From NCBI GenBank assembly GCA_947177715.1, contig CAMWVM010000026.1, forward strand, positions 1 to 11,724: a stretch of 11,724 bases of DNA, read 5' to 3'. Position 1 is the first letter of the stretch; the number at the start of each line of letters is the position of its first letter. The translations under genes and the position numbers were made by a program. Under the pieces are notes generated by a model, which had not been told where the DNA came from, made no database searches, and saw only the letters and a program-made list of their open reading frames with translations. Shown here piece by piece: positions 5,362 through 9,100 of the stretch. Source of the stretch: an uncultured Ruminococcus sp. (GTDB lineage: Bacteria > Bacillota > Clostridia > Oscillospirales > Ruminococcaceae).

Positions 5362-6621
5362 ATGGGAAAAATAATTCGCCGTGCCGCTGCGGCAACAGGC
5401 ATAATACTCATGGGAATTATGGGACTTGTGGGCTTTTATTCTACAGCTCTTCCCGATTCCTTTTACGTTTCAGGCGGCGAACCGCTTAATGTTTCATCTT
5501 TGTTTTCTATCTCATCAAAGCCATGCAAAAACGAAACATACTATGCTGCGTCCTCTCAATCCAATTTATCCTCATCTCGTTATTCAGACAATCTTTCTCA
5601 GATAACAAAAGTATCTGATACAACTCTTATGCTTTTTGACTCTATACCTATTAAAAATGTAAAAGAAAAAACTGTATCACGTCCTTTACTTGTACCCTGC
5701 GGACAACCCTTCGGCATAAAGCTTATGACGGATGGAGTAATGATCGTAAAGCTTGAAAAAATTGACGGAGAATGCCCAGCTTCAAACTGCGGACTAAAAG
5801 TGGGCGATATTATTACCTCAGTAAACGGAGAGCCAGTAGATTCAAATAAAAAAATCGGAGAAGTGATTTCAGCGTCACAAGGTCAACCTTGCCTTATTGA
5901 ATATAAACGTGAAGACGAAGAAATGACTGCAACTTTAACGCCATGTCTATGCGACGGTTCATATAAGGGTGGAATGTGGGTAAGAGATTCCTCAGCAGGT
6001 ATCGGTACTCTAACATTTTACAACCCTGAAACCTCAGCCTTTGGCGGACTGGGTCATCCGATCTGCGATTCCGACACAAAGGTTGCTCTGCCCCTTTCAG
6101 AAGGCTCTGTAGGAGAGGTGGATATTACAGGCTTTGATAAAAGTGAAAAAGGTAATCCAGGTCAGCTTTTGGGAGAGTTCACATCTTCATCAAAAACAGG
6201 GCTAATATCCGCAAACAGCAACTGTGGGATATTCGGCACACTCTTTAGCTGTCCTGCAAAGGAAAAGGCAATTCCACTCGGCTTCAGACAGGAGATTCAT
6301 ACGGGCGAAGCGAAAATTTATTCCACAATCAACGGCTGTGATCCAAAGGAATATTCCATTGAAATAGAAAAAATTGACCTCCATGAAGACGCTGAGCATG
6401 ATATGATAATTCGAATTACCGATGAAGAGCTTCTTGAAAAAACTGGAGGAATTGTACAGGGGATGAGCGGAAGTCCTATAATTCAGGACGGAAAGCTTGT
6501 GGGAGCTGTCACCCACGTTTTTATAGACTCTCCTCAGCAAGGATATGCGATTTTTGCCGACGCAATGTATGAACAGTCCTGCCAGTGTGCTGAAATTAAT
6601 GTTACAGATTTGGCAAGTTAA
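5362..6621 (+). CDS. spoIVB: SpoIVB peptidase (S55 serine protease, sigma-K checkpoint)
   Basis: 419 residues. An N-terminal hydrophobic segment (about 8-28) should anchor or export it. A PDZ domain spans about 114-195 (GLKVGDIITSVNGEPV at 144-159). The S55 peptidase domain carries H232 in FGGLGHPI and S371 in GGIVQGMSGSPI, the expected catalytic His and Ser; D354 is a candidate acidic partner. In Bacillus the forespore-made enzyme enters the intermembrane space and cleaves SpoIVFA, releasing the SpoIVFB protease to process pro-sigma-K. The start ATG lies 11 bases after AGAAGGG (5344-5350). spoIVB directly followed by spo0A is the classic arrangement in spore-formers. In Bacillus it is transcribed by forespore sigma factors; I saw no convincing promoter in 5187-5350. 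Thirteen cysteines are unusual for an exported protein of this size. Confidence 0.95.
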   Translation: MGKIIRRAAAATGIILMGIMGLVGFYSTALPDSFYVSGGEPLNVSSLFSISSKPCKNETYYAASSQSNLSSSRYSDNLSQITKVSDTTLMLFDSIPIKNVKEKTVSRPLLVPCGQPFGIKLMTDGVMIVKLEKIDGECPASNCGLKVGDIITSVNGEPVDSNKKIGEVISASQGQPCLIEYKREDEEMTATLTPCLCDGSYKGGMWVRDSSAGIGTLTFYNPETSAFGGLGHPICDSDTKVALPLSEGSVGEVDITGFDKSEKGNPGQLLGEFTSSSKTGLISANSNCGIFGTLFSCPAKEKAIPLGFRQEIHTGEAKIYSTINGCDPKEYSIEIEKIDLHEDAEHDMIIRITDEELLEKTGGIVQGMSGSPIIQDGKLVGAVTHVFIDSPQQGYAIFADAMYEQSCQCAEINVTDLAS

Positions 6622-6663: not shown

Positions 6664-6994
6664 CCATTTTATAACGCTTTTCCATAAGAAAACATGTTAA
6701 ACAAAGATTCTTGCCGAACGCTGAGGAAAAGTGTATGTCATAAAAAGGCGATTACAGAAACTATAAATCACTTAATAACATTTTGTTATGTATAAGGGTA
6801 AACACTTGTGCATTATATACAATTTAGTCGATAAAAAATTGACGTTTTTTCTAAAAACTTATTGATTTTTATGTTTAGATGTGTTAAACTGAAATCAATG
6901 AAGAATTGAAATCAGCTGAAAAATTCTTATTAACAATCAAAACAGACGGCAAGCAATTAATAAAGACATAATTAAACAACGGAGGTAAATTGAC
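6664..6994 (+). promoter_or_regulatory. spo0A control region: sigma-A-like promoter and a 0A-box-like site
   Basis: TTGATT (6862-6867), a 17-base spacer and TAAACT (6885-6890) form a plausible sigma-A promoter about 105 bases before the start codon. TTTAGTCGATA (6823-6833) contains GTCGA and resembles the Spo0A box TGTCGAA at five of seven positions, upstream of the -35, where an activator could act. A TTGACG (6839-6844) lies between them. No convincing sigma-H promoter was found. The rest (6664-6820) holds nothing I can name. Confidence 0.45.
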
Positions 6995-7777
6995 ATGACA
7001 AATAAAATCAAAATTCTCATAGGCGACGATTCTGCACAATACGGCGTTTCCTGCGCATCATCATTAAGATCCATGGGCTTCTTTGTTATAACAAGACCAA
7101 AGGACGGCTTGACAATATTTGAAGCTGTCAAAAACGAAGCTCCCGACGTAGTAATAATTGAAGCAGTAATGCCCAACTTAGACGCCATTGAACTTATTAA
7201 AAAGCTTCAGGCTTCTTCATATAAAAAACCACTTTTCATTGTTACAAGCTCTTATGAAAATTCTTTTATTGAACAGCAGGTTATGATGGCAGGAGCATCC
7301 TATTTCATGCTGAAACCCTTTGATGTAAAGGTGCTCGGCGAGCGTATAAAAGCTATGCTTGATATAGATTCAGACATTACTTCCGATCTGACTTATTCAA
7401 AAACAAAAGGAAATCCTAATCTTGAAATTATAGTAACAGATATTATTCATCAGATCGGCGTACCTGCCCATATTAAAGGTTATCACTATCTTCGTGAAGC
7501 CATTATTCAGTCGGTAAACGACAAAGAGATGCTGGAAAGCGTTACAAAGTTATTATATCCCGCTGTAGCCAAAAAATTCAGCACCACACCGTCACGAGTT
7601 GAAAGAGCAATAAGACACGCCATCGAAATTGCTTGGGACAGAGGAGATCTGGATACGCTTAACAGCTTTTTCGGATATACTGTTAACACTGGCAAAGGCA
7701 AACCGACAAACAGCGAGTTTATCGCACTTATAACCGATAAGATTTGTCTTAAATACAAAACTACTATTTCTGCATAA
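6995..7777 (+). CDS. spo0A: Spo0A, master regulator of sporulation, with D56E substitution
   Basis: 260 residues, matching Spo0A in length. The receiver domain covers about 4-122: acidic pocket D11-D12 (IGDDS), switch residue T84/S85, and K107 in FMLKPFD. The phospho-acceptor position reads [10 protein letters not shown], so residue 56 is Glu (codon GAA at 7160-7162) where Spo0A has Asp. A linker spans 123-141, followed by the DNA-binding domain with [21 protein letters not shown], the recognition helix [14 protein letters not shown] (198-211) and [14 protein letters not shown]. In the family, phosphorylated Spo0A dimerises and binds TGTCGAA boxes to start sporulation. Glu may mimic phosphate and give a phosphorylation-independent protein (inference). 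The start follows GGAGGT, and the gene sits behind spoIVB as usual. Confidence 0.95.
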
Positions 7778-7885: not shown

Positions 7886-8025
7886 GTTGCATTCGTATCT
7901 AAAGACAGCCGGCAGCGAATCTGTGGCAGTTTGATTAATGAGCGTCAGAATATATAATGTATTCTGTTTTGCTTTAGTTCTTCAAATGCCCAAAGATGAA
8001 TGCAGAAGTCCGGCCGAGGAAAAGA
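7886..8025 (+). ncRNA. Ribosomal protein L10 leader (autoregulatory 5' UTR)
   Basis: The leader carries the hallmarks of the Firmicute L10 leader: AAAGACAGCCGG on the 5' side (7901-7912) and GTCCGGCCGAGG on the 3' side (8008-8019), pairing through GCCGG/CCGGC. A local hairpin lies between them: CAGAATA (7946-7952) with TATTCTG (7960-7966). TGCATTC (7888-7894) and GAATGCA (7998-8004) are also complementary, but this pairing crosses the first, so they may be alternative folds. In the known system, L10 (with L12) binds this RNA and represses its own operon. Confidence 0.75.
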
Positions 8026-8050
8026 ATAGCAAAGTTTAATAATGCTTTGT

Positions 8051-8091
8051 AATCTCTTTTTGTCTTTATGATAAAAAGAGATTTTCTTTTT
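8051..8091 (+). terminator. Attenuator terminator in the rplJ leader
   Basis: AATCTCTTTTT (8051-8061) pairs with AAAAAGAGATT (8073-8083), followed by TTCTTTTT. It lies after the L10 leader and before the rplJ ribosome binding site. L10-dependent transcription attenuation is therefore likely, through a switch between leader folds. Confidence 0.75.
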
Positions 8092-8147
8092 GCAGATATT
8101 ACTGCAAACCGATACGGGTAGTAATTTTTCAAAGAGGTGAAATTATT

Positions 8148-8657
8148 ATGCCAAGCGAAAAGGTTTTGCTCGCTAAAAAGGAAAGAGTTGAAGAGCTTAC
8201 AGAAATGCTCAAGAATTCTGCTGCCGGTGTTCTCGTTGACTATAAGGGTATTACAGTTGAAGAGGATACAAAGCTTCGTAAGGAATTGCGTGAGGCTGGA
8301 GTTAAATACTTCGTTGAGAAGAATACAATGCTTCGTTTCGCAATGAACAATGCAGGTCTTGAAAGCATTACAAACGTTCTTGAAGGAACAACAGCTATTG
8401 CTGTTTCTGACGACGACCAGACTGCTCCTGCAAGAATTCTCGGAAAGTTTGCTGAGGACTGCAAGGACGAAAAGTTCCATCTTAAAGCCGGATTTATCGG
8501 AGAAGATGTTTATGACGAAGCTGGCGTTAAGGCACTTTCAAAGATTCCTTCAAAGGATGTTCTTTTGGCTCAGTTGGTTGGTTCTCTCCAGGGACCTATC
8601 CAAAAGCTTGCTGCAACACTTCAGGCTGTTGTGGACAAAAACAACGACGCTGCATAA
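8148..8657 (+). CDS. rplJ: 50S ribosomal protein L10
   Basis: 169 residues, the normal length. The N-terminal rRNA-binding domain includes AAGVLVDYKGITVEEDTKLR (25-44), AGVKYFVEKNTMLRFA and LEGTTAIAVS. The C-terminal helix (about 138-165, LLAQLVGSLQGPIQKLAATL) binds the L7/L12 dimers to form the ribosomal stalk that recruits GTPase translation factors. GAGGTGA lies upstream of the ATG. The gene is controlled by the L10 leader and attenuator and is followed by rplL after 71 bases. The usual upstream rplK-rplA genes are absent here; spo0A and its terminator precede the leader. Confidence 0.98.
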   Translation: MPSEKVLLAKKERVEELTEMLKNSAAGVLVDYKGITVEEDTKLRKELREAGVKYFVEKNTMLRFAMNNAGLESITNVLEGTTAIAVSDDDQTAPARILGKFAEDCKDEKFHLKAGFIGEDVYDEAGVKALSKIPSKDVLLAQLVGSLQGPIQKLAATLQAVVDKNNDAA

Positions 8658-8728: not shown

Positions 8729-9100
8729 ATGGCTTCAGAGAAAATTTTGAAATTTGTAGAAGATATTAAGACACTTTCAGTTCTTGAGCTTGCTGAGCTC
8801 GTAGACGCAATTCAGGAAGAATTCGGTGTAACAGCTGCTATCGCTGCAGGTCCTGCTGCTGGTGCTGCTGCTGGTGCTGCTGAAGAAAAGACAGAATTCG
8901 ACGTAGTTCTTGCTTCATTCGGCGACGCTAAAATGGGCGTTATCAAGGCTGTTAAGGAAATCACAGGTCTTGGACTTAAGGAAGCTAAGGAAATCGTTGA
9001 AGGCGCTCCTAAGGCTATCAAGGAAGGCGTTGCTAAGGCTGAAGCTGAAGAAATCAAGACTAAGCTTGAAGCTGCTGGCGCAACTGTTGAACTTAAGTAA
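8729..9100 (+). CDS. rplL: 50S ribosomal protein L7/L12
   Basis: 123 residues, the normal length. The N-terminal dimerisation domain (1-35, [20 protein letters not shown]) is joined by an Ala/Gly/Pro hinge (36-53) to the C-terminal domain (54-123). That domain contains [20 protein letters not shown] and [19 protein letters not shown], which contact EF-G and EF-Tu. Several copies bind L10 on each ribosome, so more L12 than L10 is needed. AAAGGAGA precedes the ATG. The hinge codons are a GCT/GGT-rich near-repeat (8856-8882). A strong terminator follows directly; no rpoB gene follows, unlike in most Firmicutes. Confidence 0.98.

Follow-up and report, generated by a model that had tools for sequence, protein, structure and literature searches.

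Glutamate at the phospho-acceptor position of Spo0A in a Ruminococcus clade and its recurrence within the family

The stretch of DNA analysed here (the window: 11,724 nucleotides of contig CAMWVM010000026.1, from an uncultured Ruminococcus sp.) carries a spo0A orthologue whose receiver has glutamate at residue 56, where a Spo0A receiver has its phosphorylatable aspartate. An earlier note on this DNA had reported the substitution (D56E) and had taken residue 56 to be the acceptor itself; both were confirmed, the codon being GAA and the residue standing in the alignment column of the acceptor Asp of the solved Spo0A receiver (5wq0) and of most relatives. Glu56 was fixed in a clade of five species and recurred elsewhere in the family. 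The reading that we put forward, with our confidence evenly divided, is that the window receiver may have become a pseudo-receiver by this one fixed change, and that the protein would then work independently of phosphate, with Glu partly activating it and control exerted through its amount or its partners.

Judged by its sequence and gene order, the window protein is an orthologue of Spo0A (Table 1). It has the receiver followed by the Spo0A_C domain, both as Pfam matches above the cut-off (58 bits against a cut-off of 30.2 for PF00072), and a stretch of 12 residues in Spo0A_C, which we take to be the DNA-contacting helix, was identical in the alignment to that of the solved Spo0A. The gene was the sole match at E <= 1e-60 in the source genome, a draft assembly (1.74 Mb, 277 contigs, 80% complete). 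As a receiver recognised by profile in which the acceptor Asp is absent, the domain belongs with the aspartate-less receivers. The pocket numbering of the earlier note was correct for D11, D12 and K107 and wrong for T84, as the conserved Ser/Thr aligns with S85: among 88 Spo0A proteins of other families, 80 have T and 8 have S in the S85 column, and 84 have L in the T84 column.

Table 1. Position of spo0A, its domains and pocket residues, and neighbouring elements in the window.
Feature	Position	Strand	Evidence or remark
spoIVB (SpoIVB peptidase S55 with PDZ)	5362..6621	+	Pfam PF05580, E 1.4e-79; gene preceding spo0A
Block of about 65 bases upstream of spo0A	6826..6890	+	Aligns in 16/16 genus genomes; presumed function
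spo0A orthologue	6995..7777	+	260 aa; Pfam Response_reg + Spo0A_C
Receiver domain, residues 7-118	7013..7348	+	Pfam PF00072, E 1.3e-15
Intact acidic pair D11-D12 of the pocket	7025..7030	+	Alignment
Glu56 at the phospho-acceptor position	7160..7162	+	Codon GAA
S85, aligned with the canonical pocket Ser/Thr	7247..7249	+	Alignment; T84 of the earlier note is 7244-7246
K107, pocket lysine, intact	7313..7315	+	Alignment
Spo0A_C DNA-binding domain, residues 147-250	7433..7744	+	Pfam PF08769, E 5e-45
Putative ribosomal protein L10 and L7/L12 ORFs	8148-8657, 8729-9100		Read by eye; downstream of spo0A

An orthologue was present in all 16 genomes of the genus that were searched, residue 56 being Glu in five of them and Asp in 11. 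The Glu codon was GAA in the window genome (G000), G009 and G011, and GAG in G002 and G008. On a DNA tree of the 16 genus rows and three outgroup rows, built with codon 56 left out, the five Glu species formed one clade (support 100/99) with the Asp species G015 as its sister (support 99/97), and one D/E change suffices on this tree. The earlier note had asked for residue 56 to be aligned across relatives and had held that Asp in them would mark a private mutation; the Glu found in five species is not private, and Asp was met only outside their clade. Within the clade, the receiver had a median pS of 0.755, with synonymous sites near saturation, and a pN of 0.051, and dN/dS was about 0.016 as estimated from the 4 of 10 pairs that are unsaturated. 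Glu has thus been kept through the turnover of third positions, where a single change would restore Asp, and it looks as if it is held by selection. Position 56 was the sole one with a residue common to all five Glu species and absent in 18 near relatives, a comparison made without L018, a divergent member of the genus. The other pocket residues (D11, D12, S85, K107 and F104) were intact, and the window clade is special in that the acceptor alone has changed.

For the family as a whole, the Spo0A rows of the 16 genus genomes were joined by those from the best 80 of 573 named loci in a contig scan, which gave 74 distinct rows and leans slightly to Glu because its single pattern held the Glu motif, and by the matches listed when 297 genomes of the family were searched (239 matched and 145 were read, the remaining 94 being weaker matches). 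Among the matches listed, a set of 202 distinct rows, from which nineteen identical rows had been dropped, held Asp in 175, Glu in 25 and Asn in 2, and the 221 distinct rows held Asp in 186, Glu in 28, Asn in 4, Ser in 2 and Cys in 1. Asp was absent in 8 of the 19 last rows added; these are among the most distant ones read, and the frequency in the family is probably underestimated because such rows had lost Asp most often. Glu was found in 23 of 156 genomes and 13 of 74 genera among the matches listed, with the window genus (16 genomes) over-represented, and no Glu genome had a second match at E <= 1e-60 except G237, with one Glu and one Asp copy. Spo0A proteins of other families, used as a phylum control (89 rows, one dropped for low coverage), held Asp in 87 of 88, Gly in one and Glu in none. 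As side observations, one genome (CANPZC) carried two close Spo0A copies (L084 and L094), one with Glu56 and the other with Asp56, the acidic pair being Glu-Glu in both, and seven Asp56 proteins (L113, L119, L121, L122 and L126-L128) had no MP motif after the acceptor (for example DISAQNGD and DINLQNGD).

The Glu rows were scattered in the family. In a careful tree restricted to 113 closer rows, of which 16 carry Glu, we counted 13 D/E changes (bootstrap 12-14), at least 10 of which were forced by well-supported branches. This tree was limited to rows with at least 57% identity to the window protein, excluded Asn, Ser and Cys rows and dropped Asp rows that share at least 93% identity with a retained row (148 rows reduced to 113), and it lacks 12 of the 28 Glu rows. 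On a quick tree of all 221 rows, which has many long branches, the Asp/Glu label changed 20 times, at least 11 of them forced by starred branches. These counts cannot separate gains from losses; because Asp is so common and the Glu rows are so scattered, gains from Asp would be the simpler reading. The 202-row set contained 19 separate non-Asp groups, 17 of them Glu, and the share of Glu expected under unconstrained single steps from GAY is 0.14-0.25 (P < 1e-8 under a simple model in which each non-Asp group is one gain from Asp). This favours Glu over other replacements, but it also fits Glu as the mildest replacement.

The sporulation genes persist in the genomes concerned, as judged from two markers, SpoIVA and SASP, in 78 genomes that included 20 with Glu and 2 with Asn; 8 non-Asp genomes found later and those Glu genomes represented by named loci alone are left out of this test. 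SpoIVA was found in 77 of the 78 genomes, including all 22 with Glu or Asn, and SASP in 74 of the 78, including 21 of the 22, which speaks against loss of sporulation as the cause of Glu56. Apart from spo0A itself, one to four further Spo0A_C matches occurred in each of 13 of the 16 genus genomes (a total of 25, of which 23 exceed the cut-off), at G000:C21:2675-3415 in the window genome (L002, L021) and at L019, L020 and L037-L049. Position 56 was Ser in four of the six paralogues that could be aligned, Asn in one (that of the window genome) and Asp in one, and in G009 and G011 one extra match lay about 5 kb from the spoIVA match.

In the mechanism that we propose, Glu56 could not accept phosphate from a kinase, so that Spo0A would neither need nor use phosphorylation at this residue; its side chain, with S85 and K107 present, would shift the receiver partway to the active, dimer-forming state, and entry into sporulation would depend on how much Spo0A is present, on partner proteins or on both, and not on kinase flux. 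Kinase-driven control through residue 56 has probably been lost, because the acceptor Glu is fixed in the clade, the pocket is intact and the sporulation markers are retained, and sporulation in this lineage may be triggered without the usual phosphate signal. The earlier note had seen in Glu56 a phosphomimic that could make the regulator constitutively active or independent of kinases. A probable loss of kinase control via residue 56 is supported; constitutive activity is spoken against by PMC4395418, which reports, with reference to Green 1991, that D-to-E alone is often insufficient for it, naming CheY, PhoB and Spo0A. In PMC4395418 and PMC12632262, Glu is the commonest residue of pseudo-receivers and a possible partial phosphomimic. 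A further point against constitutive activity comes from PMC12632262, which gives Phe at K+2 as biasing CheY to inactive forms; the corresponding residue of the window protein is F109, and Phe was kept in 23 of the 28 Glu rows among the matches listed.

The strongest of the other explanations is that Glu56 is not a mimic and ends phosphotransfer only, activity coming from another input, such as a partner (for example a degenerate Spo0A-like paralogue) or an intrinsically dimeric receiver. Distant family members with Asn, Ser or Cys at position 56 (7 of 221 rows), none of which mimics phosphate, are in keeping with it, as are the further Spo0A_C matches in 13 of the 16 genus genomes and the statement in PMC12632262 that the residue itself has been disproved as the source of activity in some pseudo-receivers. 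We nevertheless consider this explanation unlikely, given that the pocket residues are intact in the window clade and that Glu makes up 28 of the 35 non-Asp rows among the matches listed, which are not independent rows, against 26% among aspartate-less receivers in general according to PMC4395418.

It is improbable, in our judgement, that Spo0A or sporulation is being lost, position 56 drifting under relaxed constraint with Glu as the mildest change. Features of the pocket speak for this explanation. Among the 221 rows of the matches listed, position 12 was Asp in 175, position 107 was Lys in 163 and Arg in 45, and position 85 was Ser in 168, Thr in 24 and Ala in 19; the phylum control had Lys at position 107 throughout (88 of 88) and Asp at position 12 in 82 of the 84 rows with a letter. 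By these alignments the family pocket is less constrained than that of other families. On the 202-row tree, positions 12, 56, 85 and 107 each changed 19-20 times (20 times for each of 12, 85 and 107), D63 changed 4 times and P108 did not change. The changes match those in the list of pseudo-receiver replacements in PMC12632262 (second acidic residue to Asn, T to Ala and K to Arg). Relaxed constraint may account for some of the pattern, because pocket residues drift in Asp rows too; many Glu, Asn and Cys rows lie on long branches, and the absence of Asp from 8 of the 19 most distant rows points the same way. Against it stand the strong purifying selection on the receiver of the window clade, the retention of SpoIVA and SASP, the unchanged DNA-contacting stretch and the rarity of transition products, with Asn in 4 rows and Gly in none of the family rows among the matches listed. 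In plain counts, the rest of the pocket was canonical in 119 of 186 Asp rows and 11 of 28 Glu rows, and an acidic residue 12 was rarer in Glu rows (18/25 versus 164/175, p 0.003), a difference that relatedness may explain. A coupling of residue 56 (scored as Asp versus any other residue) with other pocket losses was not seen on independent pairs (median p 1).

Phosphorylation could instead have moved to another pocket residue (S85, T84, S86 or D63) with kinases still in control. D63 was nearly invariant (192 of 202 rows among the matches listed) and an unpaired kinase remains in three Glu genomes; yet S85 and D63 are kept in Asp species too, so that nothing marks an acceptor switch, and we regard this explanation as distinctly improbable.

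The kinases were surveyed by their HisKA matches. Family-wide, Glu and Asp genomes did not differ (medians 11.5 and 12, p 0.52; 20 Glu and 56 Asp genomes), so that a lower number of kinases in Glu genomes was not seen across the family. Within the genus we counted 4, 2 and 3 matches in G000, G002 and G008 (80, 93 and 83% complete), 13 in G009, 11 in G011 and 9-26 in the Asp genomes (n=11), and the resulting difference (p 0.02) is not independent because the low counts come from three related genomes, which are also the smallest of the Glu clade (1.4-1.7 Mb). We read 30 of the 33 HisKA matches that the five Glu genomes contain; 26 adjoin a response-regulator-like ORF, including both of those found in G002, and one (L348) runs off the contig end. 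The low counts in this genome-reduced group and the pairing of both G002 kinases speak for the mechanism proposed here. Three homologous kinases of 822-844 aa (L357, L364 and L367, in G000, G011 and G009; 42-71% identity), with HisKA and HATPase domains, had no regulator adjoining, a result that was unchanged at a looser threshold; three of the five Glu genomes, among them that of the window, thus retain this unpaired kinase. All 29 HisKA matches of the Asp genomes G015 and G007 were read, 20 lying by a regulator, 6 having a receiver within the ORF and 3 having neither, and one unpaired kinase among these (L432) is a homologue of the three above. Unpaired and hybrid kinases look rarer in the Glu clade, with two comparison genomes too few for a conclusion. 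Against the kinase independence suggested earlier stand the family-wide counts, which do not differ, and the one unpaired kinase that the window genome keeps.

A search by ATPase domain in G000, G002 and G008 gave mostly other ATPases (by eye, of the gyrase, HSP90, MutL and SpoIIAB types) and, in G000, one kinase-like protein that adjoins a regulator. A soluble kinase-like HATPase_c protein (L403-L415; G000:C11:3144-4223 in the window genome) was present in 13 of the 16 genus genomes and is fast evolving, with 25-61% identity to the copy of the window genome. HisKA was found in none of the three copies scanned, and a conserved phospho-acceptor His in none of 12 aligned relatives. Because this His is absent in Asp and Glu relatives alike, the protein is uninformative on Glu, and a kinase with its His lost only in Glu species was rejected.

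The block upstream of spo0A has, in order, GTCGAT (in 13 of 16 genomes), a TTGACGTTTT-like stretch, an A run and a promoter-like pair, TTGATT-17-TAAACT (6862-6890), with TTGCTT in three relatives. GTCGAT resembles part of a 0A box. An altered spo0A promoter in Glu species was rejected, since the block aligns in the Asp and Glu genomes of the genus, and the same alignment speaks against the suggestion of the earlier note that Spo0A is driven by its level, if this is taken as a new trait. Elsewhere in the window, a long leader with a terminator-like stem, seen by eye, precedes the presumed rplJ (7890-8147), and an Rfam scan of the whole window gave no family at gathering score. A small protein of 175 residues (1509-2036) is coded between yebC and a flavodoxin-like gene; its residues 84-153 make up a GIY-YIG nuclease domain, and its first 80 residues match no Pfam family.

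Last among the alternatives, a sequencing or assembly error at codon 56 might be suspected in a draft genome in 277 contigs and 80% complete, but it is refuted for the clade, and an error confined to the window's contig is very unlikely because the genomes of four other species carry Glu, with both codons (GAG, GAG, GAA and GAA).

Endospore formation is commonly taken to be gated by phosphorylation of Spo0A. Among cultured spore formers related to this family, strains of Ruminococcus bromii have shown endospores under the microscope (PMC5814915). Tentatively, and with confidence a little short of even, we propose that in one gut-bacterial family Spo0A may repeatedly have left the phosphorelay, the protein becoming independent of phosphate, with sporulation kept and entry set by amount or partners. 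Recurrent, clade-fixed loss of the acceptor with sporulation markers kept offers natural test cases for phosphorylation-free sporulation, in gut commensals for which spores may be important in spreading from host to host. It also cautions that, in this family, finding spo0A in a genome is no safe sign that kinases control sporulation. Judged from search listings, we found no report of D56E in Spo0A in the open-access literature, and a term search of the main text of a study of Spo0 pathway evolution (PMC6136694) found neither 'Ruminococc' nor 'D56'.

The window protein resembles the Spo0A of Bacillus and clostridia in its domain order, the position of its gene after spoIVB, the acidic pair and the lysine, with 47% overall identity to Spo0A of another family. 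It differs from the Spo0A of other families in having Glu for the acceptor Asp, Ser in the receiver where 80 of 88 have Thr, and Ser at T+1 where 71 of 88 have Ala. In NtrC, the phospho-acceptor residue is D54, and an engineered D-to-E change reportedly acts as a phosphomimic. The window protein carries the same substitution, but here it is natural, fixed and recurrent, and PMC4395418 cites the Spo0A version of this change as inactive on its own. Aspartate-less receivers and pseudo-receivers, such as ChxR and the plant pseudo-response regulators (described in PMC4395418 and PMC12632262), are alike in having Glu at the acceptor position. Unlike them, the window clade has changed the acceptor alone, and the attached output domain belongs to the master regulator of sporulation. 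As a kind, receivers with Glu in place of the acceptor Asp are already well known; the window protein would be a pseudo-receiver of this kind in the master sporulation regulator.
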